Assembly (NCBI RefSeq): GCF_003574315.2
Contig: NZ_AP025739.1
Span: 2,108,001-2,172,000 of the forward strand
Length of the DNA stretch: 64,000 bases
From: Capsulimonas corticalis
GTDB lineage: Bacteria > Armatimonadota > Armatimonadia > Armatimonadales > Capsulimonadaceae
Direction of reading: 5' to 3'
Part shown: piece by piece, positions 22,700 through 39,949 of the stretch
Layout: every line of letters starts with the position of its first letter
Numbering within the stretch: position 1 is the first letter of the stretch
Notes under the pieces: model-generated
What the model was told of the DNA's origin: nothing
The model's database searches: none
What the model saw: the letters and a program-made list of their open reading frames with translations, nothing else
Program-made: the position numbers and the translations under genes

Positions 22700-22723
22700 C
22701 TATTGGGGAGCGGCGGTGTGAGA

Positions 22724-25426
22724 TTAATCGTCGTCGCCGTCGTGTTTGCGGCTGGCGGCGTGGGCGCTCTTGGGAGCGGGCGCGGCGCTCAGGCCATGGC
22801 GGATGGCGGGCATTGTGGAGCCGGCGCCCTTGACGCTTTTCCAGAGGATCTCATTGAGCGTCTGCGCCGGCGCGCTGTCCGGGTGCGTGAAGTCCATCTT
22901 GCTGGACAGCGCCGCGAGGCGCGCCATCGTGGGGTTGGACTTCAGGGCGACGATCGACGGGTTGAGCTCGCCGATGATACTGGCGTCCGGCAGGATCGCC
23001 GTGTAAACATCGCCGTTGGTCGGGGCCGTGTCAAACGCCTGGATCGGGTCGGCGATGGCGTCGTACTGGCTCAGAGGCTTGAGGCCCAGGAGGCCCTCCA
23101 CGGTCTTCAGCACGCTGTCTGTATTATAGAACGTGTGGTCTACCGTGCTTTTTTTGATCCAGGGACTGATCACATAGCAGGTCGAGCGGTGCGCGTCCAC
23201 GTGATCTGGGCCATCCTGGGCGTCGTCCTCGATCACGAAGATCGCGGTGCTGTCCCAGATCGGGCTCTTGCTGACGGCCTCGACAAGCTGGCCGATGGCG
23301 TAGTCGTTATCGGCGACTTCGGAGCGCGGCGTGTGCTTGCCCGGCGAGGTTCCCTGCGTGTGATCCTTCATGAACCGCACGGTCTGGAAGGTCGGAACGG
23401 CCTTTCCGGTGGGATCCTTCGCCAGGAGCTGATTGAACTCGGTCTTCCATTCGGTGAAGCGGCTCGGCGCCTGGTGCTTGCCGTAGTTCGTGATCTTGTA
23501 GAGGAACGCCGGGTTGCCGGTCTGGTTGTAGTAGGTGATCGGCGCTTCGCTGTCGGCGTAATCGCTGTCGAAGCGGCGGAAGTCGTAGTCGCTGACGCCC
23601 GCGAGGTCGTGTCCCGGAGGCAGCAGGCCGCTGGCGGCGGGATAGTTGTCCGGCAGCAGGCTGCCGACGCCGAAGGAGTAGAAGAAGCCGTAGTTCCGGT
23701 AGGAAAGCTTCGCCTTCTTCACGGCGTCCCAGATGTGTCCGGCGGGGGCTTCGGTGACGTCGGGGATCCGGGGCAGGCCGCCCGGGAAGACCGGGGAGAG
23801 CGTCTTGCCGTCGGGATTGGCGGCCGGGAAGCCGCCGGTCAGGTAGCCGTTGTTCTGGCCCTCGAAATCATAGTTCCGGCCGCGTCCGCTGTAGTTGTAC
23901 GGCAGGTTCTTAATGACGTTCTCGGTCGCGATGCTCTGCGTGCTCCACGGCCAGCCGTCGCCGCTCGCCTCGCCGCAGTCGTAGAAGTTGTCCAGCAGCA
24001 CGAACCGCTGCGCGATCGCATGGAGGTTCGGCGTGACCGGCTGGCCGAAGATCGCCAGCGACGGCTGTCCGTTGCCCGTCGGCACATCGCCCAGAACCTG
24101 GTCGTAGGTGCGGTTTTCTTTGACGATATAGATCACGTGCTTGATCTTGCCTGCCTTCACGCCGATGCTCGAAACCGGGTTGACCGGGTTCGTGGTCGTG
24201 GGCGTGATGCGGTTGTTCGCCAGAGCCAGTTTGGTGTCCTGGGCCAGCAGGACCGAGTTCGGGACGGCGATCGTTTCGACGTTCCCTTCGATCAGGTTCA
24301 GGATATACTGGCCGTTCGGGTCCGTCAGATAGCCGGGGTTCGGATTGCGTGTCACGGTTCCCTTGGCGTTCGCGACCAGCAGCCTTTTGCTGTCGGTGGC
24401 GACCACGCCGGTCGGATACCAGCCCGCCGGGATGTACCCCTTCAGCGAATTGGAGGCCAGATCGACGACGCCGACCGCGTTGAAGTCGCCCAGGCTGACA
24501 TACAGCGTGTTCTCATCGGGCGAGAGCGCCAGGCCGTTAGGAGTGACGCCGGCCAGGCCATGCGCGCCGGTCGGCTGCAGCAGGATTGTGTCGACGATCG
24601 CATTTGTCGCCGTGTCGATCACGGAGACGGTGTCGCTGTGCGCATTGGAGACATACAGGCGGGTCTGCGTCTTGTTCAGCAGAAGTCCGTCCGGCTGCGC
24701 GCCGGTCGCGATCGACGTGATCAGCGCCGGGGCGGCGGGATTGGACGTATTCAGTACGTACACCGCGCCGTCGCGCTCGCTGGTCACGAACATCTTGCTT
24801 CCATCGGCCAGCGCCGCGACCGAGAGCGGGTAGTTCGGCGTGCCGTAAAACGACGCGCTGAAGCTGTAGCGGCCGACCGAAGCACCGGTCGCGGTGCTGT
24901 AAATGGCGATGCTGCTCGGCTGGAGCGGCGTCGCCGGGTCGTTGTTGGCGACATAAAGGTAGCCGCGCGAATCCGTGGCGACGCCGGCGGGGAAGTCGTG
25001 CGCCTGGGCCGCGATCGATCCGGTCTGCGTCAGTGTCCCATCGGCCGCGAGGGCCAGGACGGCGATGGAATCGTGCGCGCCCTGGGCTGCGTAGAGCTTG
25101 CCGTCGGGGCCGAACGCCAGGCCGTAGTAAAGTCCATTGGAGCCGTCGGCGTTGTTCGGGAAATCGACATGCGAGACGCCCGCGCCGGTTTTGGCGTCGA
25201 TGGACCAGAGCGACTGCCGAAATCCCATATCCGTGGAGACGGCGTATTTGCCGCTGGGGCTGAGCACGATATTCATCGGCAGGCTGCCGACATTTTGCAC
25301 GGCGCCGAGCGGCGGCAGCGTGATCTTCTTACCGGTGACGAGAACATCCTGCGCCTGAGCGGAGCCGCCCAAGATTGCTATTGCGGCAACAACTGTCGCC
25401 AGTTGTTTGGCTTTCTGGATCATCAT
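22724..25426 (-). CDS. Exported YncE-like beta-propeller / phosphoesterase protein (paralog 1)
   Basis: 900 residues with a signal peptide (LATVVAAIAILGGSAQAQ). Residues about 35-400 are a YncE-type seven-bladed propeller (SPSGKYAVSTD, DTATNAIVDTILLQPTGAHG, GWYPTGVVATD). Residues about 425-800 form a phosphoesterase domain (PF04185, phospholipase C/acid phosphatase-like) with VIYIVKENRTYDQVLGD, DNFYDCGEASGDGWPWS, and a metal-site region VIEDDAQDGPDHVDAHRS. It is probably an extracytoplasmic phosphatase. GGAG precedes the ATG. It is one of four paralogs here. Unlike the other three it has no visible PHO-box-like array upstream. Confidence 0.85.
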   Translation of the reverse strand: MMIQKAKQLATVVAAIAILGGSAQAQDVLVTGKKITLPPLGAVQNVGSLPMNIVLSPSGKYAVSTDMGFRQSLWSIDAKTGAGVSHVDFPNNADGSNGLYYGLAFGPDGKLYAAQGAHDSIAVLALAADGTLTQTGSIAAQAHDFPAGVATDSRGYLYVANNDPATPLQPSSIAIYSTATGASVGRYSFSASFYGTPNYPLSVAALADGSKMFVTSERDGAVYVLNTSNPAAPALITSIATGAQPDGLLLNKTQTRLYVSNAHSDTVSVIDTATNAIVDTILLQPTGAHGLAGVTPNGLALSPDENTLYVSLGDFNAVGVVDLASNSLKGYIPAGWYPTGVVATDSKRLLVANAKGTVTRNPNPGYLTDPNGQYILNLIEGNVETIAVPNSVLLAQDTKLALANNRITPTTTNPVNPVSSIGVKAGKIKHVIYIVKENRTYDQVLGDVPTGNGQPSLAIFGQPVTPNLHAIAQRFVLLDNFYDCGEASGDGWPWSTQSIATENVIKNLPYNYSGRGRNYDFEGQNNGYLTGGFPAANPDGKTLSPVFPGGLPRIPDVTEAPAGHIWDAVKKAKLSYRNYGFFYSFGVGSLLPDNYPAASGLLPPGHDLAGVSDYDFRRFDSDYADSEAPITYYNQTGNPAFLYKITNYGKHQAPSRFTEWKTEFNQLLAKDPTGKAVPTFQTVRFMKDHTQGTSPGKHTPRSEVADNDYAIGQLVEAVSKSPIWDSTAIFVIEDDAQDGPDHVDAHRSTCYVISPWIKKSTVDHTFYNTDSVLKTVEGLLGLKPLSQYDAIADPIQAFDTAPTNGDVYTAILPDASIIGELNPSIVALKSNPTMARLAALSSKMDFTHPDSAPAQTLNEILWKSVKGAGSTMPAIRHGLSAAPAPKSAHAASRKHDGDDD

Positions 25427-25578
25427 AGTCTCCTGTATCTGTTTGCTTGCTTCATGAAGAAATCAATATGGCTTTAGCCCCAGTGGGTAAATTTTTGTGT
25501 CTCGATATCGCCGGCATGCCACACGATGAAATTTCGCCGAACAAAAACCTAACCCTATGAATGGGACCCGGGGCCTTC

Positions 25579-25919: not shown

Positions 25920-26723
25920 TTAATTGTAAACGAAGTGCGGCGCATTCGCGGGATCGCAGATATTCGGCTCGCCGGCCGCCGTGGAGACGCCGTTGTACGT
26001 CATTACGCCGACTACCGGGTAGTCGTGGATCAGGTTGCAGCCCGTAAGGTCCTTGCTTTCCTGGATATCGTCGGCGGTGAGCGCCTTCGCATGCCCGTCG
26101 AACATGACGCAGTTGATGCGTCCCTGGTGACGGTTGCCGGCCTTGAACATGTGCGTGCGGTCCGCGCCCGGGCCGTTATCGTAATCGAAGTCGCCGTTGA
26201 AGGGCTCGATCCAGCTGTCGGTCACCGCGCCGCCGGAGTTATGATCCCATTTGTCCATCAGAACGATAGTTTCCACCGGATCGGCCAGCTGCGCCAGCGT
26301 CAGCGCCTCGGCGGCGCGGCTCGCGATATAGGATCGCGGGATGACGAGGTTGCCGTTTACATCCGCGCCCATCGTCGGCTTGGGATCGCTCGGGCAGGTG
26401 AAGACGTTGTTGCTCTTGACATAGGGCATCAACACGTTCCACCAGCGCTCGGCGTTTTTGGCGGCGGGAGTGTTGGGAATGGCCTGACCGGTGCGCGAAG
26501 CCGTGGGGTCGATATTGGCGTAGAAGAAAAGACGCTCGTCATTGTCCTGCACGTACATCTGGACGCCCAGGCCAAGCTGCTTTGTGTTGGACAGACACGC
26601 GATGGCTCGCGCTTTTTCGCGCGCCTGCGCGAAGACCGGGAAAAGGATCGCGGCGAGGATCGAGATGATCGCGATCACGACGAGAAGCTCGATCAGTGTG
26701 AATCCGCTGCGTTGGTTCGCCAT
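25920..26723 (-). CDS. Prepilin-like protein with H-x9-DG motif
   Basis: 267 residues. The type IV prepilin leader ([18 protein letters not shown]) has the Gly-Phe peptidase site and Glu5, followed by [20 protein letters not shown]. The C-terminal globular part has [17 protein letters not shown], the H-x9-DG motif typical of the DUF1559-like pseudopilin family of Armatimonadota and Planctomycetota. It is probably processed by a prepilin peptidase and placed in a pseudopilus or at the surface; the function is unknown. It is co-directional with the small secreted gene and phosphoesterase paralog 1. Confidence 0.85.
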
Positions 26724-26884
26724 GGGAGGGAGTCCTTACTGTCAGATTTTCGATATTCTGAAACTTTAGATTTTCCGTGGAATGCCGGCGATGTTTTGAG
26801 ATCGCCGCCGTGTCATTGTATCGCATCCCCTCGGGAAATCCGCCGTTCTCGGCGTCAAAGATTAAAATTTTCCAATGGGGGCCT

Positions 26885-26915
26885 TCTCCGCGCCTTTGGG
26901 GGATCGGCGCGGAGA
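26885..26915 (-). terminator. Hairpin after the fused phosphoesterase gene
   Basis: A 10-bp GC-rich stem (26885-26894 with 26906-26915) begins 15 bp after the stop codon at 26930. No T-run follows, so it could slow or protect the transcript end rather than terminate by itself. Confidence 0.4.
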
Positions 26916-26929
26916 CGGCGGGGATGGGC

Positions 26930-29900
26930 TTAGTCGTCGGAGTCCTTGGGGGCAGGGCCGTTGACCAGCGTGAGGGCGGTTTGGTACAGTCGGGCCTGAA
27001 GCGCCTTATACGCGGCGCTGTGCAGGTGGTTCTTCTTGACGGCGGCGCTATGGACTTCGTCGGCCTTGACCGACATGCGGGCCAGCGCGCCGAGGCGGTG
27101 GCTATCGCGGTCCGGAGCGGAGGAGTCAAGCTTGGCGACCAGCGACCAGATCTTGCGGCCTTCGGGCGACGGCGTGTACTGGGCGGTGCGGGTCACCGGC
27201 ACGGAAGACGCCGTGATTCCGTTATAGGTCGGCTGGAACAGATCGCGAAGGTCGGTCGCGAAGAGGTCGCCCAGGTTGTTCGGCGGAAGGCCCAGCAGCA
27301 GCTCCTCGGTCTTGACGACGGACGCCGTGACATAGTGCTTCTTGGCGAGGTAGCCGGGCTTGGCGAACGGGCTGACGACCACCAGCGGCGTGCGGTGCTG
27401 CTGGATGTGGTCCAGCGAGGACTGCGCGTCGTCGTAGGTGATGAAGATCGCGCTGCCGGTGTCCGTGCTCGGGTCGTAGTACGCGGGGCTCTTCATGATA
27501 TGGTTCACGACCATGCCGAGGCCCGTGTCGCCGTCGCCGACCTGCTGGAGCGGGGAGGTTCCCACCGCGCCGGCGTTGGGCGCCTGGACGCCGCCGGTGT
27601 GGTCGTTGGGCTGGTAGAGATAGATGAACTGCGGCAGCGTGCCGTTCGCCAGCTGGCGGTCGAAGTCCTTGATGAACTCCTTCGCGCGGCGCTGATCCGA
27701 GATATTGAAGTTGTATCCCGGATAGTTCTTATCAAGACGCGCTTCTCCCGACGGGTTGCTCGTTCCCAGCACGCTCAGGATCGGCAGCGCCATGAAGTAC
27801 GCCTGGCCCAGGCCCTGCGTCGTGCTCTCGGTGTCGCCCGCGTTGACCAGCGGCGAGGTGATGTGGAAGGCGTCCGCTTGCAGCTGCGGGTAGCCGGCAA
27901 GGCCGCTTGCGGGATCGTCGATGGTCGTCGGAACGCTCGTTCCGGTGTCCGTGCCGACGATCCGGATCAAGGCGCCGTAGTCCTTGAAAGAAACGCCGTT
28001 GCGCGCCGCGTTATTGAAGATGTATCCGCCTTCGGGATAATCTTCCGGCTCGAAGTTCTTGTTCACCAGGAGGCCGCGGCCGGACTTTACCAGCAGGGTC
28101 TTTTCGGTATAGTCGGTGGCGGTGCCCGACGCGGAGAACTGATGGCCGGCGTCGCTCTCCTCGGAGTCCGAGTAGTAGTTGACGGCCGTGGCGAACGTCG
28201 TCGCCAACTGCTGCGTGTTCAGCGAAACGCCTGTGTACTGACCGTTCACGAACGGGCTTCCGTCCGGGTTGTTGTAGGTCAGGCTGGCGTAGGGACCGAA
28301 GTGGCCGTTCTGGTTACCGAGCATGGAGTCAAACGTCTTGTTCTCATGCAGGATGAAGAACACGTGCTTGATCTTGTTCGACGCCGCGCCGCCCGCCGGG
28401 ACGACGCTGGTGTCGGCCGGAGGATTGATCGCGTAGTTATACGACGGGACCTGTGTCTTATTCGGATGCGTCGCGGTCAAGTCCACCTTCTGCACTGTGC
28501 CGAAGATGTAGTTGCCGTCCGTGAAGGATTCAATCCCTGTCGGATTGTGTCCCGCGTTCACGGTGTTCGGGTTGATGTCCTCGCCGACGCCCTTGGCGTT
28601 GACGATATAGAGCGTTTTGCCGTCGGGGCTGACGCTCAGGCCCGTGGGATACCAGCCGGTAGGGATGCGGCCGATCAGTTTGGGCGCGGTCGGGACGGTG
28701 GTGTCGAGCACCGCGACGGAGTTGAGGCCGGCTTCGGCCACATATAGCCGGGTGTTGTCCGGAGAAACGGCCAGCGCGTTCGGGTAGGAGCCGTGGATTT
28801 TGTGGCCGTCGAGCAGCGTGACGCCGATCGGGGAGAGATCGAAGTCGGGCAGCTTGCGGTTGTTGCTGACCTGGATCAGGCCGAGGCTGTCGTCATTGGC
28901 CTTCGCCACATACAGCACTTCGACCGTTCCGCGCCGCACGGAGGCGAGCGCCGAGGGATGCGTGTCGCCGACCTGGTAAAGCTGGTCGAGCGGCGCGCCT
29001 TCGTAGATCGAGCCCAGCAGGCTGGCGCTCGCGCCGTTGGCGCCGGGAGCGGCCAGGATCGAGATCGAGGAGGTCTTCGGGTTCGAACCCGTCGTGCTGG
29101 TCACCGGGACATAGTAGCCGTCGGGCGCGTTGCCGGGGACCGGCGCGATCGACGTCAGGTTGCCCGCGCCGTCGTAGGCCGGGTTCTTGAACTTGTACTC
29201 GGTGGCGCCCCAGTTGGAGACCAGGATCTTGTTGCCTTCCTTGCTGACCGCAACGGCGTAGGGGAAGTATCCGACCGGGACCTGCTTGACGACCGTTTTG
29301 CTCGCCGTGTCGATGATCGCGACGCTGTTGTCGCCGTTACAGGCCACGTAGAGGAATTTGCCGTCGGGGCTCAGCGCGGATCCGGCGGGGAAGGTGATCT
29401 TCGCGCCGCTTTTGCTGTAGCCCGTGGGGGCCGAAGTCGTCGTGGCCGCCGCGCCGATGGGCGTGTAGTTGGAGACATATCCCGCGCTCTGCGGCGTGAT
29501 CGGCGCGATGGCGATGGAGCCGACCGGTCCGGCGATCGCGCCGGCGCTGGAGACGGTGAACAGCTTGATGCTGTTGTCGCCGCCGCTGGAGGCCCAGATC
29601 GTGTACGTGCCCGACCCCGTCGCCTGGAGGCCGACGAAGAGCTTGCCGGCGGTGTTGATCTGGCTGACGACGCTCAGCGTCGCCGTATCGATCACCGAGA
29701 TCGAGTAGCCGCCGCGGTTGATCGAGCTCTGCAGCGAGAACGAGCTGGCGCCGGAGCCGTCCCGCTCGTCGTCGTTGGTCGTGATCAGATATTTGCCGTC
29801 GGGCGTCAGGGCCGTTCCGAGCGGGTTCATGCCGATCTGCGCGCTGACGCCCGCCGGTCGGACGATCCGGCCGTTGGGCAGGACGCCGCTGAAGTACGAG

Positions 29901-30694
29901 CCGAACTGGTTTGGGCCGGTGAAGAGCTCGGCGCCGCTGTAGACGCCGCTCTGGGAGGAGCCATAAACGGGAGCGGTGACCGACGCCCAGTTGCCGGCGT
30001 CAATCGTCGCGGCCTTCACCGGGGGCTGCGGGACGCCGGCGGCGGCGACCACCGCAATCGCGACCACGGCGCCTTTGCGCGTGCGGCGAAAGAGAAAGCC
30101 CAGGAGCGCCAGGCCGGACGCCGCGAGCATGGCGACGAGGCCGGAGGGTTCCGGAACCGGGGTCGCCGTCAGGCCGAAGGTTCCCACGCCGTACTTTTCG
30201 CCCGTCTGCGCGTCGACGGCGTAGATGTTCGTGAAGACGTCGAAGAAGCTGTTGAACGATCCGGGCGTGAAGGACGCCGTGAAGGACGGGAATACATTCG
30301 CGCTGGAGAGGGGGCCGCCGAAGCTCTTCTCGATATCCAGGTTCGTCAGATCGAACGAACCGTTCAGCGTCGCCGAGGTGATCGCGCCATGACCCATGTC
30401 CGCGTACGAAAACGGATTGGTGTAAACCGAAAGGACGCCCGTGTCCAGTGTGTTTGTTTTGGAGTAGCTCGTCAGATCATAGAGGCTAAGGGTCTGCGTG
30501 GTCGAGTCCGCGAAAGTCTCGGTAAGATCCAGGTTCTGGAATGTGACGTCGCTGGCGACTGAGAACGTTGGGTCGCCGCCGGAAAGCGTGAAGTTCGTTA
30601 CCTGATATTGTACATGGGGGTGCGCGGCGTTGGCGCCCGGCGCGCAGATAGCAATGCTTGCGAATAGAAATGCAGCCAGCGGGGCTCGTTTCAT
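26930..30694 (-). CDS. PEP-CTERM domain fused to YncE-propeller/phosphoesterase (paralog 2)
   Basis: 1254 residues, about 390 longer than its paralogs. Residues 1-24 are a signal peptide. Residues 25-178 form a beta-rich PEP-CTERM-type protein that ends, in the middle of the chain, with the sorting-signal layout VPEPSGLVAML (180-190), a hydrophobic helix and RRTRKG (203-208). A second hydrophobic stretch follows at once (VVAIAVVAAAGVPQPPVKAA, about 210-229), resembling a signal peptide. A YncE-like propeller (about 240-800) and a phosphoesterase domain (VFFILHENKTFDSMLG; metal region ITYDDAQSSLDHIQQHR) complete it. AAGGAG precedes the ATG. A PHO-box-like array lies upstream. The layout looks like two genes joined without a stop. 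Confidence 0.85.
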   Translation of the reverse strand: MKRAPLAAFLFASIAICAPGANAAHPHVQYQVTNFTLSGGDPTFSVASDVTFQNLDLTETFADSTTQTLSLYDLTSYSKTNTLDTGVLSVYTNPFSYADMGHGAITSATLNGSFDLTNLDIEKSFGGPLSSANVFPSFTASFTPGSFNSFFDVFTNIYAVDAQTGEKYGVGTFGLTATPVPEPSGLVAMLAASGLALLGFLFRRTRKGAVVAIAVVAAAGVPQPPVKAATIDAGNWASVTAPVYGSSQSGVYSGAELFTGPNQFGSYFSGVLPNGRIVRPAGVSAQIGMNPLGTALTPDGKYLITTNDDERDGSGASSFSLQSSINRGGYSISVIDTATLSVVSQINTAGKLFVGLQATGSGTYTIWASSGGDNSIKLFTVSSAGAIAGPVGSIAIAPITPQSAGYVSNYTPIGAAATTTSAPTGYSKSGAKITFPAGSALSPDGKFLYVACNGDNSVAIIDTASKTVVKQVPVGYFPYAVAVSKEGNKILVSNWGATEYKFKNPAYDGAGNLTSIAPVPGNAPDGYYVPVTSTTGSNPKTSSISILAAPGANGASASLLGSIYEGAPLDQLYQVGDTHPSALASVRRGTVEVLYVAKANDDSLGLIQVSNNRKLPDFDLSPIGVTLLDGHKIHGSYPNALAVSPDNTRLYVAEAGLNSVAVLDTTVPTAPKLIGRIPTGWYPTGLSVSPDGKTLYIVNAKGVGEDINPNTVNAGHNPTGIESFTDGNYIFGTVQKVDLTATHPNKTQVPSYNYAINPPADTSVVPAGGAASNKIKHVFFILHENKTFDSMLGNQNGHFGPYASLTYNNPDGSPFVNGQYTGVSLNTQQLATTFATAVNYYSDSEESDAGHQFSASGTATDYTEKTLLVKSGRGLLVNKNFEPEDYPEGGYIFNNAARNGVSFKDYGALIRIVGTDTGTSVPTTIDDPASGLAGYPQLQADAFHITSPLVNAGDTESTTQGLGQAYFMALPILSVLGTSNPSGEARLDKNYPGYNFNISDQRRAKEFIKDFDRQLANGTLPQFIYLYQPNDHTGGVQAPNAGAVGTSPLQQVGDGDTGLGMVVNHIMKSPAYYDPSTDTGSAIFITYDDAQSSLDHIQQHRTPLVVVSPFAKPGYLAKKHYVTASVVKTEELLLGLPPNNLGDLFATDLRDLFQPTYNGITASSVPVTRTAQYTPSPEGRKIWSLVAKLDSSAPDRDSHRLGALARMSVKADEVHSAAVKKNHLHSAAYKALQARLYQTALTLVNGPAPKDSDD

Positions 30695-31932: not shown

Positions 31933-31960
31933 CGCCTTCTTAACCTATCTTGGGTAAACT
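31928..31960 (+). promoter_or_regulatory. PHO-box-like promoter of phosphoesterase paralog 3
   Basis: CTTAACGC (31928-31935) and CTTAACCT (31939-31946) are 11 bp apart. TAAACT (31955-31960) follows the last box after exactly 8 bp. The first box contains the stop codon of the DUF72 gene. Only two good boxes are seen here, against three or four in the sister promoters. Confidence 0.65.
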
Positions 31961-32018
31961 TGCGGCGGTTCGCGCACTTTTGCGCGCCGTGGTATCTGTC
32001 CAAGGAAATCATCGAACG

Positions 32019-34595
32019 ATGCGAATGCAATGGATCGCGGCGGCTGCCTTAATCGCCGCCACGGCGGCCGTGATGGCGGCGCCGAAGACGCCCGCTCCCA
32101 CACCCGCCAATCTCCCACTGGTCACCGGTAAGACGCTGACGCCGGAAGGCGCGCAGACCAATGTCGGCAGCTTTCCCGCGAACCTCGCGCTGTCGCCGGA
32201 CGGAAAGTATATTCTGGTCACGACCGCCGGCATGCGCGAGTATCTGTCCGTGCTGCGCGTCGCCGACGGCCGGCTAATCAGCCGCCTCGACTTCAACAAA
32301 CACAGCACGGTAGTGGATAACAAGCAGGCGCTTTACTACGGCCTCGTTTGCGGCAAAACCGAGAACGGCGTGACGACGGTGTACGCCTCGCGCGGCGGCG
32401 AGGGCATGGTGAGCGTCCTGTCGCTGGACGCCGAGGGCGCGCTGACGGATACCGGCAAAACGCTGACGCTGACGCCGGAGCCGGGCGGCGATCTCGCTTA
32501 CACGGCGGGCCTCGCCGTGAGTGGGGACGGCGCGCATCTCTACGCCGCCGACAACAGCGGGGTTCCCAAGGCCGGCATGCGCGGATCCCTGCGAATCTTC
32601 GACACCGCGTCCGTGAGGGAAACGGCAAATGTGGATCTGCCCGGCTACCCCTACGCCGTCGCCGCCGTGACGGCGGGCGCGGAGGCTGGCCATAAAGTCT
32701 ATGTCACCAGCGAACAGCGCGCCAATGTCTCGGTCGTGGACCCTGTCGCCGGAAAGTCCGTGCGTGAGATCGCGACGGGAACCCAGCCCATCGGCTTGCT
32801 GCTGGACAAGGCGCAGGCGCGCCTGTTCGTGGCGAACGCCGGCGGCGACACGGTGAGCATTATCGACACCCGCACGGACAAGGTGACCCGAACCGTCTTG
32901 ATGCGTCCCGACAACATGCGCGGCCTGCCCGGCTCGACGCCGACGGGCCTGGCGCTCTCTCCCGATGAGAAGACGCTGTATGTGACGCTCGGAGACATGA
33001 ACGCGGTCGCCGTCGTGAACCTGCCCGACGCCAAGCTCATAGGATATCTGCCCGCCGGCTGGTATCCCACGGGGGCAGTCGTCTCGCCCGACGGACAGCG
33101 TCTCTTTATCGCCAACGCCAAGGGGGTGGCTGCGCGTAACCCCAACGATACGCCCAGCCGCACTCTGACCGAGCGGCCACAGTATATCCAGAACATTATC
33201 GAGGGCACGGTCACGACGATCGATCTGGCGGCGCTTCCGACGCTGAAGACGCTGACGGCGAGAGTGCTGGCGAACAATCAGGGGGTTCTTGGAAGGAAAC
33301 CAAAGTTTCAGAACCCGGGCGTCAAACACGTTTTTTATATCATCAAAGAAAATCGGACCTACGATCAGGTGCTCGGCGATCTGCCGCAGGGCGACGGGGA
33401 TCCGTCTCTGGTCCTCTATGGCCGCGACATCACCCCGAATCTGCACGCGCTGGCCGAGCGGTTTGTGCTGCTCGACAACTTTTACTGCTGCGCCGAAGTC
33501 TCCGGGGACGGCTGGAACTGGTCCACCGGCGCGATGGCGTCGGAGTTCAACGCGCGCAACGTCGCGCACAACTATGGAGGGCGTCGTCGTCCGTACGATT
33601 TTGAAGGCAGCAACAACGGAATCGCCGTGGATCGTCTGGATATCCCCGACGCCAATCGTCCGCCCGGGGGCTACCTCTGGGATCTGTGCGCCGCCCACGG
33701 TGTCTCGTTCCGCGATTACGGCTTCTTTATGGACGATTTCGACGTTCCGCGCAAAACGCCGGAGCGTGGGACCGAAGGGCTGGAGAACAGTCCGACCATG
33801 AAGACGCTGCTTGGCAAAACCTGCGCCGAGTTTCGTGAGTTCGACACCAACTACGCCGATAGCGACGCCTGGATCGACGCCAAGTTCGCTCCCGCGCCCC
33901 GTCAGCTCAAGACCTATGGCAAGTACGACGCCCCTTCTCGTGTGTCCGCCTGGAAGCGCGAGTTCGCCGAGTACGTGAAAACCGGCGCCTTGCCGCGCTT
34001 TACGATGCTGCGCCTCGGACGCGATCACACCGCGGGCACCTGGGATGGGTGCTCGACGCCGAACGCCATGGTCGCGGACAACGACTACGCTGTCGGTCAG
34101 GTCGTCGATATTATCAGCCACAGCCCCTACTGGAAATCGTCCGTCATCGTTGTGGTGGAGGACGACGCCCAGCACGGCTACGACCATGTGGACGCGCACC
34201 GGTCCACCGCCTACGTGATCAGCCCGTTCATCGAAAAGGCGACCCACGACAGCCATTTCTACAACACCGACAGCGCCCTGCGCACGATCGAACAACTGCT
34301 CGGCCTGCCGCCGATGACCCAGTACGACGCCATCGCCCCGCCCATCGACGTCTTCCAAAAAAACGCGGTCAACGCCGAACCCTACCGCGCGGTGCTTCCC
34401 GCCCGCAGCATCCTGGCGGCGGTAAACACCAAGGAAGCCTATCGCGCCGCCGACAGCGCCCGCCTGCTCAATACGCTTCGGGAAGAATCCGGACCCGACG
34501 AAGAACTCAACGACATCCTCTGGCGCTCAGCCAAGGGAACGCCGCCCCCGCCAAGGCGATATTCGCTCTCACTGGCGCGGGTGGGGGACGATTAA
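32019..34595 (+). CDS. Exported YncE-like propeller / phosphoesterase protein (paralog 3)
   Basis: 858 residues. ATG 32019 is chosen for the AAGGAA 11 bp upstream and because paralog 4 starts at the matching place; the frame is open to 31950. A signal peptide (WIAAAALIAATAAVMAAP) is followed by a YncE-type propeller (about 30-390) and a phosphoesterase domain (VFYIIKENRTYDQVLGDLPQ near 440, NFYCCAEVSGDGWNWSTGAM, VVEDDAQHGYDHVDAHRST near 715). The predicted role is extracytoplasmic phosphate-ester hydrolysis. It is 96-97% identical in DNA to paralog 4 over sharp blocks. A PHO-box-like promoter precedes it. Confidence 0.88.
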   Translation: MRMQWIAAAALIAATAAVMAAPKTPAPTPANLPLVTGKTLTPEGAQTNVGSFPANLALSPDGKYILVTTAGMREYLSVLRVADGRLISRLDFNKHSTVVDNKQALYYGLVCGKTENGVTTVYASRGGEGMVSVLSLDAEGALTDTGKTLTLTPEPGGDLAYTAGLAVSGDGAHLYAADNSGVPKAGMRGSLRIFDTASVRETANVDLPGYPYAVAAVTAGAEAGHKVYVTSEQRANVSVVDPVAGKSVREIATGTQPIGLLLDKAQARLFVANAGGDTVSIIDTRTDKVTRTVLMRPDNMRGLPGSTPTGLALSPDEKTLYVTLGDMNAVAVVNLPDAKLIGYLPAGWYPTGAVVSPDGQRLFIANAKGVAARNPNDTPSRTLTERPQYIQNIIEGTVTTIDLAALPTLKTLTARVLANNQGVLGRKPKFQNPGVKHVFYIIKENRTYDQVLGDLPQGDGDPSLVLYGRDITPNLHALAERFVLLDNFYCCAEVSGDGWNWSTGAMASEFNARNVAHNYGGRRRPYDFEGSNNGIAVDRLDIPDANRPPGGYLWDLCAAHGVSFRDYGFFMDDFDVPRKTPERGTEGLENSPTMKTLLGKTCAEFREFDTNYADSDAWIDAKFAPAPRQLKTYGKYDAPSRVSAWKREFAEYVKTGALPRFTMLRLGRDHTAGTWDGCSTPNAMVADNDYAVGQVVDIISHSPYWKSSVIVVVEDDAQHGYDHVDAHRSTAYVISPFIEKATHDSHFYNTDSALRTIEQLLGLPPMTQYDAIAPPIDVFQKNAVNAEPYRAVLPARSILAAVNTKEAYRAADSARLLNTLREESGPDEELNDILWRSAKGTPPPPRRYSLSLARVGDD

Positions 34596-34844: not shown

Positions 34845-35822
34845 ATGGAACAACTTCCCAGCGCGCGTTCTTCGCGCGCCGCCGCCGGTTTTACTCTGAT
34901 TGAACTGCTCGTCGTCATCGCCATTATAGCGATTCTCGCAGCAATACTCTTTCCGGTCTTCGCCAAAGCGCGTGAGAAGGCGCGTCAGACCTCCTGCGCC
35001 AGCAACGAGAAGCAGATCGCGCTGGCCAACCTTCAATATATCGGCGATTACGACGATCGTGAACCGATGGTCGACTATTTTGTCTATCCCGCCGGTGGAA
35101 CAAAACAACTGATCACCTGGACAATCGCTCTCCAGCCTTATACCAAATCCTGGTCGGTGTTCCGCTGCCCCAGCGACTCGAGTGCCCTCGCCACCAAGTT
35201 CACCCGGTTCCAGGGCGACACGATCTCCTTCTCGGATCCCAATTACCTTCAGGCCGTCAACTCCAGCTACGCGATCAACGCGGATTATATGAATCCCGAG
35301 CCCGGCTGCGACCAGACAACGAAAACCGCCTACAGCGATCCGCCGAGTGAGGCGGGCGAAGGACATCAGGGCATTCCGGTCCAGCAGAGCCAGATGGAGG
35401 CGCCTTCGGAGACGGTCTTTGCCGTCGACGCCAAGCCGCTGTTCTACGACGCCAGCACCGCGTGGATGTATCGATATTGGACCGGCGCTCCGGCGACCTG
35501 GAACGCTCCGATCGCATGCACCTCCTGGAGCTGGGGCAGCCATCAAGGCTGGGATCAGGCCGCGACCGCCGGGTCCGGCGGTCCGGGCTCCTTCGGCGTG
35601 TCCGGCGACGAGCCCGGCAACACCAATACGGACCGCGTCTCCGTGCGCCACACCGGCGGTACGAACGTCATGTTCTGCGATGGCCATGTCAAGTGGCTGA
35701 CGCCGGGCAATCTGGCGGCAGGCACCAACTGGAATACGGGCGCGGATCGGGGGAGCATTTTCATCCTCGATTTCAGCAAGTATCTCTGGTCGCTGAAAAA
35801 GTCCGGCGATACCGATATGTAG
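34845..35822 (+). CDS. Prepilin-like protein with H-x9-DG motif
   Basis: 325 residues. After 13 short basic and Ala-rich residues comes the prepilin leader [17 protein letters not shown], then [20 protein letters not shown]. The C-terminal head contains [18 protein letters not shown], the H-x9-DG motif of the DUF1559-like family, and several Cys that may form disulfides. AGGAAA precedes the ATG. It is first in a short operon with the small membrane protein at 35845 and is driven by a four-box PHO-like promoter, so it may be made under phosphate limitation. Confidence 0.87.
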
Positions 35823-36396: not shown

Positions 36397-37263
36397 ATGC
36401 AAATCTCTCGCTCTAAACACACGTCCGGTTTTACGTTGATAGAATTACTCGTCGTCATCGCAATAATCGCGATTCTTGCCGCCATTCTGTTCCCGGTCTT
36501 TGCCCAGGCGCGCGAAAAGGCTCGCCAAGCGGCGTGTCTGAGCAACATGCGTCAGATTGGCACCGGAATGCTCATGTATACGCAGGACTACGATGAGGCC
36601 ATCGTGCCGTCGTCGAACTCTGCTTCGTGGCCGACGATGATTTATTCCTATATTAAAAACGCCCAGGTATTCGTGTGCCCAAGCGCCAACGACACGCTGA
36701 CTGGCGGCGATACGAAGTATGTGCCCGGCACAAACAAGTTTACCGGCGTTGCGGTGACTGTCGGAACGACCGCCGGCGATGGAAGCCCGACGTCGATTTC
36801 TCTCGTCCCGCGATTGTCTTACGCTCGAAACTTGATCCCCACTACGAACGGTACGCCGGATCCGTGGCATAACATTATTGCGCTTCGCCCATGCAGCAAC
36901 GGCAAAACCTATCCTGGATTTGTCGACTATGTCAGCAATTTGAAATCTGGATGGGTGGGAAAAGGAACGACGTTTACCCGCACGATGGCGGACATCGCGG
37001 ATCCTGCTGGCACGATCCACATTGTGGACGGAATGGTTTCCCCGCTAGCGCTATCTCCGACGACCTTCAATCAGGGACCCTCGATGCGCGGCTTGCAGTA
37101 CGATAACCGCACGGACATGTTCAATGATGCGACGTACTCCAAAGTCGCCTATCGTCACACCGGCGGTTTCGTCGTACTTTACGGCGATGGTCACTCGGGA
37201 TACAAGAAGTGGGGAACGACCACACCTTGTATGTGGACGATCCAGGACGATCAGTGTAATTAA
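36397..37263 (+). CDS. Prepilin-like protein with H-x9-DG motif
   Basis: 288 residues. The leader ([17 protein letters not shown]) and [20 protein letters not shown] are almost identical to those of the sister prepilins. The head domain contains [20 protein letters not shown] with the H-x9-DG motif and ends with Cys-containing [19 protein letters not shown] lies about 10 bp before the ATG. Phosphoesterase paralog 4 starts 88 bp downstream, with a hairpin but no obvious promoter between, so the two probably share the PHO-like promoter at 36258. Confidence 0.87.
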
Positions 37264-37284
37264 ACGGCGCGATCTTGGGCGAAT

Positions 37285-37310
37285 GGCCGGCGAGAATGTT
37301 CTCGCCGGCC
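37285..37310 (+). terminator. Attenuator-like hairpin between prepilin and phosphoesterase genes
   Basis: A perfect inverted repeat (GGCCGGCGAGAA, 37285-37296, and its complement to 37310) is followed by ACGTTGTTTT. It lies within the 88-bp gap and may partly terminate or stabilise the upstream message, giving more prepilin than phosphoesterase. Confidence 0.5.
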
Positions 37311-37351
37311 ACGTTGTTTTCGGAAATACCCGGCAAGGAATCGATCGAACG

Positions 37352-39949
37352 ATGCGAATGAAATATCTCCCGGCGGCGGCGCTCGCGGCCGTGGGCGCCG
37401 CCGCGATGGCGGCGGCTCCGAATACCCCCGTTATCTCCTCGGAAACCAACCCTCCGCTGGTCACCGGCAAGCAGATCACTCCCGAAGGCAAGCAGACGAA
37501 TGTCGGGAGCTTCCCCTCGAACCTCGCGCTTTCACCCGATGGCAAGTATATCCTCGTCACCAACTCCGGTTACCGCGAATATCTTTCGGTGCTGCGCGTG
37601 AGCGATGGCGCAATGGTGAGCCAGCTCGATTTCAACGGCCCCAGTACGGTCATTAAGAAGAAAAAACAGGCGCTTTACTACGGCCTCGCCTGCGGCAAAA
37701 CCGAGAACGGCGTGACGACGGTGTACGCCTCGCGCGGCGGCGAAGGCATCGTAGGGATTTACTCGCTGGACGGAGACGGGAAACTGACGGACACCGGCAA
37801 GACGCTGACGCTGGCGCCGGAGGCAAACGGCGCGCTCGCCCATGTCGCGGGCCTGGCGGTGAGCGGCGACGGCGCCGCGATTTACGCCGCCGACAACAGC
37901 GTGGACCCCAAACACGATCTGCGGGGATCCCTGCGGATTTTTGACACGGCGAGCGGAGCCGAGAAGGCAAATGTGGATCTGCCCGGCTACCCCTACGCCG
38001 TCGCCGCCGTGACGGCGGGCGCGGAGGCCGGCCATAAAGTCTATGTCACCAGCGAGCAGCGGGCCAATGTCTCGGTCGTGGACCCCATCGCTGGAAAGTC
38101 CGTGCGTGAGATCGCGACGGGAACACAGCCCATCGGCTTGCTGTTGGACAAGGCGCAGGCGCGCCTGTTCGTGGCGAACGCCGGCGGCGACACGGTGAGC
38201 GTCATCGACACCCGCACGGACAAGGTGACCCGGACCGTCTTGATGCGTCCCGACAATATGCGCGGCCTGCCCGGCTCGACGCCGACGGGCCTGGCGCTCT
38301 CTCCCGATGAGAAGACGCTGTATGTGACGCTTGGAGACATGAATGCGGTCGCCGTCGTGAACCTGCCCGACGCCAAGCTCGCCGGATATCTGCCCGCCGG
38401 CTGGTATCCCACGGGGGCAGTCGTCTCGCCCGACGGACAGCGTCTCTTTATCGCGAACGCCAAGGGGGTGGCTGCGCGTAACCCCAACGATACGCCCAGC
38501 CGCACTCTGACCGAGCGGCCACAGTATATCCAGAATATCATTGAGGGAACGGTGACGACCGTGGACCTGAGCAGCCTGCCGCCGCTGAAAGAGACAACGG
38601 CGCGCGTCCTCGCGAACAACCAGGGCGCCATGAGGAAAAGGGCGAAGTTCCACAACCCCGGCGTCAAGCATGTGTTCTATCTGATCAAGGAAAATCGGAC
38701 CTACGATCAGGTGCTCGGCGATCTGCCGCAGGGCGACGGCGATCCGTCGATCGTCCTGTTCGGGCGCGACGTCACCCCGAATCTGCACGCGCTGGCCGAG
38801 CGGTTTGTGCTGCTCGACAACTTCTACTGCTGCGCCGAGGTCTCCGGGGACGGCTGGAACTGGTCCACCGGCGCGATGGCGTCGGAGTACACCGCGCGCA
38901 ATGTTCCGCACAACTACTCCAGCCGGCAGCGCCCTTACGACTTTGAGGGAACCAACAACGGTGTCGCCGTGGACCGCATCGACGCCCCTGACGCCGCCCG
39001 TCCGCCCGGCGGCTACCTCTGGGACCTTTGCGCCGGCCACAGGGTGTCGTTCCGCAACTACGGCTTCTTCACCGACGACCTGGAGATTCCGCGCAAGACG
39101 GCGGAGCAGGGGACCGAGGGGCTGGAGAACAGTCCGACCAAAAAGACGCTTCTCGGCAAGAGCTGCGCCGAGTTCCGGCAGTTCGATACGTCCTACGCCG
39201 ACAGCGAAGCGTGGCTGAACGCCAAGATCGATCCCGCGCCCAAGCAGATGGTGAGCTATGGAAAATACAAAGATCCGTCCCGCGTGACCGCCTGGAAACG
39301 GGAGTTCGTTGAGTACGTCAAGAACGGAAATCTGCCCAGCTTCTCCATGATCCGCGTGATGCGCGACCACACGGCGGGCACCTCGGCCGGATCCTCCTCC
39401 GCGCGCGCCATGGTGGCGGACAACGACTACGCCGTCGGCCAGATCGTGGACACGATCAGCCACAGTCCTTATTGGAAATCATCGGCGATCGTGATTGTCG
39501 AAGACGACGCGCAGAACGGCTATGACCATGTGGACGCGCACCGTTCCACCGCCTACGTGATCAGCCCGTTCATCGAAAAGGCGACCCACGACAGCCATTT
39601 CTACAACACCGACAGCGCCCTGCGCACGATCGAGCTGCTGCTCGGCCTGCCGCCGATGACCCAGTACGACGCCATCGCCCCGCCCATCGATATCTTCCAA
39701 AAAAACGCGGTCAACGCCGATCCCTACGACGCCCTTCTGCCGTCGAAAGAGATCCTCGCCGAAGTGAACACCAAAAAGGCGTATCGCGCCCAGGACAGCT
39801 CCCGCCTGCTCAACCCACGCCGGGAAGAATCCGCGCCCGACGAGCAGCTCAACGACATCCTCTGGCGATCCATCAAGGGAACCACGCCGCCCGCGCGGCG
39901 CTACGCGCTGTCAGTGGCGCAGGTGAAGGAGAAGGACGGGGATGATTAG
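37352..39949 (+). CDS. Exported YncE-like propeller / phosphoesterase protein (paralog 4)
   Basis: 865 residues. ATG 37352 is chosen because it has AAGGAA upstream and matches the start of paralog 3; the frame is open to 37124, but that part is antisense-like. A signal peptide (LPAAALAAVGAAAMAAAP) precedes the YncE-like propeller and the phosphoesterase domain (VFYLIKENRTYDQVLGDLPQ, VIVEDDAQNGYDHVDAHRST). It shares sharply bounded near-identical DNA blocks with paralog 3. It probably hydrolyses phosphate esters outside the cytoplasm and is co-regulated with the prepilin upstream. Confidence 0.88.
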   Translation: MRMKYLPAAALAAVGAAAMAAAPNTPVISSETNPPLVTGKQITPEGKQTNVGSFPSNLALSPDGKYILVTNSGYREYLSVLRVSDGAMVSQLDFNGPSTVIKKKKQALYYGLACGKTENGVTTVYASRGGEGIVGIYSLDGDGKLTDTGKTLTLAPEANGALAHVAGLAVSGDGAAIYAADNSVDPKHDLRGSLRIFDTASGAEKANVDLPGYPYAVAAVTAGAEAGHKVYVTSEQRANVSVVDPIAGKSVREIATGTQPIGLLLDKAQARLFVANAGGDTVSVIDTRTDKVTRTVLMRPDNMRGLPGSTPTGLALSPDEKTLYVTLGDMNAVAVVNLPDAKLAGYLPAGWYPTGAVVSPDGQRLFIANAKGVAARNPNDTPSRTLTERPQYIQNIIEGTVTTVDLSSLPPLKETTARVLANNQGAMRKRAKFHNPGVKHVFYLIKENRTYDQVLGDLPQGDGDPSIVLFGRDVTPNLHALAERFVLLDNFYCCAEVSGDGWNWSTGAMASEYTARNVPHNYSSRQRPYDFEGTNNGVAVDRIDAPDAARPPGGYLWDLCAGHRVSFRNYGFFTDDLEIPRKTAEQGTEGLENSPTKKTLLGKSCAEFRQFDTSYADSEAWLNAKIDPAPKQMVSYGKYKDPSRVTAWKREFVEYVKNGNLPSFSMIRVMRDHTAGTSAGSSSARAMVADNDYAVGQIVDTISHSPYWKSSAIVIVEDDAQNGYDHVDAHRSTAYVISPFIEKATHDSHFYNTDSALRTIELLLGLPPMTQYDAIAPPIDIFQKNAVNADPYDALLPSKEILAEVNTKKAYRAQDSSRLLNPRREESAPDEQLNDILWRSIKGTTPPARRYALSVAQVKEKDGDD

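Follow-up and report, generated by a model that had tools for sequence, protein, structure and literature searches.

An intact PEP-CTERM signal in mid-chain of a predicted exported phosphoesterase of Capsulimonas corticalis, probably the product of an in-frame gene fusion

In Capsulimonas corticalis, a complete PEP-CTERM-type protein (TIGR02595) continues without a stop codon into a propeller/phosphoesterase (PF10282 and PF04185) within one frame of 1254 codons, as an earlier note on this DNA had proposed. We regard the fusion as very probably real and the processing of its product into two proteins as likely, the most likely course, judged from the sequence, being a separation of the chain by signal peptidase, by exosortase or by both. 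The gene is a new arrangement of known parts and not a new system.

The gene lies in the window, meaning the whole 64,000-nucleotide stretch that was analysed, and its features are collected in Table 1. On the minus strand, 30694-26930 is a single uninterrupted frame with no internal stops, opening with an ATG at 30694 that is preceded at a spacing of 6 nt by a strong Shine-Dalgarno sequence, and closing with a stop codon that ends at 26930. GC3 is 0.85-0.90 along the frame, junction included, and the codon log-odds are positive for frame 0 at every step across the junction and strongly negative for the two other frames. Very long antisense frames (up to 924 aa), whose translations are rich in arginine, lie opposite the phosphoesterase genes (22703-25477, 26777-28747 and 28793-30562, all on the plus strand) and are probably a by-product of the high GC3.

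Table 1. Features of the fused gene (window coordinates; res, residues of the translated chain; a slash marks the predicted cleavage site).
Feature	Position	Strand	Basis
Whole fused gene, 1254 codons, ATG to stop	26930..30694	-	continuous frame and Shine-Dalgarno GAAGGAG
First signal peptide MKRAPLAAFLFASIAICAPGANA/A (res 1-~24) and first residues beyond	30617..30694	-	hydropathy; A-x-A site inferred from sequence
N-terminal passenger domain, beta-rich, res ~27-179	30158..30616	-	homology to G004 PEP-CTERM gene; low-confidence model, mostly strands
Internal PEP-CTERM signal VPEPSGLVAMLAASGLALLGFLFRRTRKGA, res 180-209, 30 residues	30068..30157	-	TIGR02595 / PF07589
Second signal-peptide-like segment RRTRKG-AVVAIAVVAAAGV-PQPPVKA/A, res 203-229	30008..30088	-	hydropathy, charge, orthologue leader position
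Mature propeller (YncE/lactonase-like) and phosphoesterase (PF04185), res ~230-1254	26933..30007	-	PF04185 3.5e-14, PF10282 9.3e-11

The chain begins with a signal peptide recognised by hydropathy and sequence (MKR, hydrophobic residues 4-21 and an A-x-A site). The N-terminal half matches a separate PEP-CTERM protein of G004, a genome of the same family, at 31% identity over 123 aa (E 2e-7), and across 291 Armatimonadota genomes convincing homologues of this half were found in C. corticalis (G000) and G004 alone. A structure model of the first domain, built from a two-sequence alignment, consists mostly of strands and, with a pLDDT of 38, is too poor to use.

The three parts of the internal signal, namely the VPEPSG motif, the hydrophobic helix and the basic RRTRKG cluster, are all intact. 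TIGR02595 gave it 14.2 bits with the full chain as query and 17.2 bits, above the 16-bit cut-off, when the N-terminal half was scanned alone, while PF07589 gave 16.2 bits, below its cut-off of 20.7. In a genome-wide search it scored 15.2-17.1 bits, with weak non-PEP matches at 13.4 bits or less; it is thus weaker than most PEP-CTERMs of this genome, which reach 31.5 bits, and several truly C-terminal signals score below it. The single-contig genome of 7.645 Mb contains 26 recognised PEP-CTERM-type signals, and the expectation that they are otherwise C-terminal holds for the 25 others, whose chains stop 27-34 residues past the motif, a span into which the 30-residue internal signal fits. The fused gene is the sole exception, with more than 1000 residues (about 1045) beyond its signal in place of the extreme C-terminal position usual for PEP-CTERM proteins. 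No further internal PEP-CTERM was found among the best 150 matches, from 121 Armatimonadota genomes; the only frame longer than 468 aa among these, one of 1094 aa in G056, carries its signal at the C-terminus. Haft et al. 2006 (PMC1569441) described PEP-CTERM as lying near C-termini virtually without exception, with under ten residues past the model in 87%, and suspected the few matches at atypical positions of being non-functional. Neither internal PEP-CTERM signals nor PEP-CTERM fusions were described in the literature that we searched.

After VPEPSGLVAMLAASGLALLGFLFRRTRKGA comes VVAIAVVAAAGVPQPPVKAA, a second signal-peptide-like stretch. The second helix read there previously was confirmed as a hydrophobic stretch at residues 209-222, with a 13-residue hydropathy peak of 2.76 and, at 13-14 residues, as short as cleavable leaders are. 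Its n-region, which is common to the PEP-CTERM tail, carries a charge of +4, the segment aligns in position with the leaders of phosphoesterase orthologues, and a V-x-A site is its predicted cleavage site. Beyond it, PF04185 and PF10282 both score above their curated cut-offs (53.2 and 41.9 bits). The proposed homology to neighbours in the window stands insofar as three stand-alone proteins there are related (33-34% identity for the two measured); the closest relatives, at 56-70%, are found elsewhere. These stand-alone paralogues surround the fused gene at 22724-25426 (minus strand), 31950-34595 and 37124-39949 (both plus strand); the last two look closely alike, suggesting a local duplication, and have prepilin-like genes between them. 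Type IV pilin-like N-termini are carried by three proteins (25920-26723, minus strand; 34845-35822 and 36397-37263, plus strand) that appear DUF1559-like by eye and whose genes are interleaved with the phosphoesterase genes.

Orthologues of the phosphoesterase half, at 56-70% identity, occur in two other Armatimonadota, in many Acidobacteriota and in MAGs labelled cyanobacterium and Verrucomicrobiota; the value is 65% for G020 and 61% for G004. About 17 other orthologues, mostly from Acidobacteriota, stand alone, and every orthologue with a readable N-terminus begins with its own leader. The closest one (70%; L063 5001-8078) comes from a MAG labelled uncultured cyanobacterium and surpasses that of G004, which points to either transfer or a binning error. 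G004 carries the homologues of both halves as two separate adjacent genes (L035/L073/L108): the PEP-CTERM gene, ending in a stop codon, comes first and, after 28 nt with a Shine-Dalgarno sequence, the orthologous phosphoesterase gene follows; each has its own leader. A further PEP-CTERM gene (L073 3603-4148; 181 aa, VPEPGPLALLLAGV) is located directly upstream of the homologue of the fused N-terminal half. The distance between VPEP and the conserved phosphoesterase NW is 165 nt in the fusion and 250 nt in G004, making the fusion 85 nt shorter.

Because the pair is separate in G004 and the orthologues stand alone with their own leaders, the gene pair is most likely the older state, from which an in-frame, lineage-specific fusion was derived. 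The phosphoesterase tree does not resolve a sister relation between the C. corticalis and G004 genes, and we therefore infer shared inheritance of the pair from adjacency and the homology of both halves. Separate genes in relatives, which the earlier note would have taken as refutation, do exist in G004 and in Acidobacteriota; they reveal the ancestral state and do not refute the fusion. The suggestion to look for the same fusion in related genomes was not rewarded: the fused form was seen in one genome only, and no conservation across genomes thus speaks for selection on the fusion or on its internal signal.

That processing at the junction would yield two exported proteins is supported by the presence of the enzymes. 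The genome encodes one exosortase (PF09721 6.1e-51; TIGR02602 127 bits, cut-off 105.55) in which the C, R and H motifs were read by eye, an EpsI gene that overlaps the exosortase gene and whose match is above cut-off, and several signal peptidase homologues (family PF10502). An in-frame fusion of adjacent genes giving two separate products through signal peptidase I and exosortase has, in our estimation, an even chance of being correct. Such an event would have removed the stop, the spacer and the start along with a portion of the second leader, and the basic PEP-CTERM tail would now also supply the second signal peptide with its positively charged n-region. The whole chain would be made as one polypeptide and its first domain exported by the Sec signal, after which the PEP-CTERM helix would run inward through the membrane and the short second h-region back out, RRTRKG forming the cytoplasmic loop and both passenger and phosphoesterase lying outside. 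Signal peptidase I would cut after ...PPVKA and release the phosphoesterase, and exosortase would cut at VPEP and sort the first domain. We propose that signal peptidase acts first, whereupon the first product would end about 20 residues past the usual tail and exosortase would meet a nearly normal PEP-CTERM C-terminus, an order that would explain how it copes with an internal signal. We infer the topology, both cleavages and the separate fates of the products. Action of exosortase on the internal signal has an even or slightly lower chance, and the complete picture, a polyprotein in which back-to-back PEP-CTERM and signal peptide share a basic loop and are cut by exosortase and signal peptidase, is put forward tentatively.

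The gene shares with PEP-CTERM/exosortase sorting (TIGR02595, TIGR02602; PMC1569441) the signal peptide, passenger, VPEP, transmembrane helix, basic cluster and exosortase with EpsI, whereas the usual signal is C-terminal and this one lies within the chain, with about 1045 residues and another export signal behind it. With the exported PF10282 + PF04185 phosphoesterases (YncE-propeller/alkaline-phosphatase-superfamily) it has domains, domain order and 56-70% identity in common, although the others open with their own short leader and not with a complete PEP-CTERM protein. The nearest working analogue known to us would be the Bradyrhizobium fbcH cytochrome b/c1 precursor, in which one chain reportedly yields two exported or membrane products separated by an internal signal peptide, processing being said to have been demonstrated by Thoeny-Meyer et al. 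The likeness would consist in two products in one chain with an internal leader, which in our case is recognised by hydropathy, charge and orthologue alignment. The first product of fbcH, in contrast, is not known to have a C-terminal sorting signal or to involve an exosortase, whereas the fused gene has such a signal and its cleavage is predicted.

The fusion might also be real while signal peptidase I alone, or nothing, separates the halves; the internal PEP-CTERM would then be a relic, with the first domain anchored by its helix or the entire chain membrane-bound through a helical hairpin. The comparatively low score of the internal signal fits this reading, as do the description of exosortase substrates as C-terminal and the possible non-functionality of atypically placed PEP-CTERMs (Haft et al. 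2006, PMC1569441). Decay would, however, be expected to blur VPEP, helix and basic cluster, all of which are intact, and lower scores are found among genuinely C-terminal signals of the same genome. We consider a relic unlikely.

Two proteins could alternatively arise from the one frame by internal initiation (e.g., at GTG 30067 or ATG 30130), some or all of the phosphoesterase then being made separately. GTG 30067 does mark the beginning of the second hydrophobic stretch and has AAAGG four bases before it, a spacing too short for normal initiation, and a stem resembling a terminator overlaps the sequence that codes for the helix, though near shuffle expectation. A leader from this GTG would lack a basic n-region, and no promoter-like site was found between 30476 and the junction. 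Internal initiation is quite improbable.

An assembly or consensus error, with two genes in the living cell, draws on the facts that the frame is known from the assembled sequence alone, that one genome has the fusion and that G004 has two genes. Against it, the genome is a single 7.6-Mb contig, the difference of 85 nt from G004 is beyond the reach of a point error, and codon use stays in frame 0 throughout, the other frames meeting stops only well past the join. An indel was rejected on this codon signal, the first stops in frames 1 and 2 lying at 30018 and 30002. Also rejected was a GTGA overlap (30019; frame 1 stop and in-frame GTG), as it would deprive the phosphoesterase of its leader and read the first protein's tail in a frame whose codon scores are strongly negative. 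Between VPEP and NW, only four codons could become a stop by a single substitution, and only a change of residue 207 from AAA to TAA would end the chain at a natural PEP-CTERM tail. This would leave GTG 30067 as the sole nearby start, with neither proper Shine-Dalgarno spacing nor a charged n-region, and a point error therefore restores no two normal genes. The slip hiding two normal genes against which the earlier note had cautioned was thus not found, neither an indel nor a single substitution restoring the pair; a simple sequencing slip is unlikely, and an error of any such kind very improbable.

A real fusion whose product is likely processed into two proteins bears on how far cells tolerate the merging of two exported proteins. 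As one case in one genome, it will carry wider weight to the extent that processing is demonstrated. As a natural substrate, a chain with an intact signal in its middle would test the need of exosortase for a free C-terminal tail and, if our proposal is true, exosortase would need no free C-terminus beside its signal.
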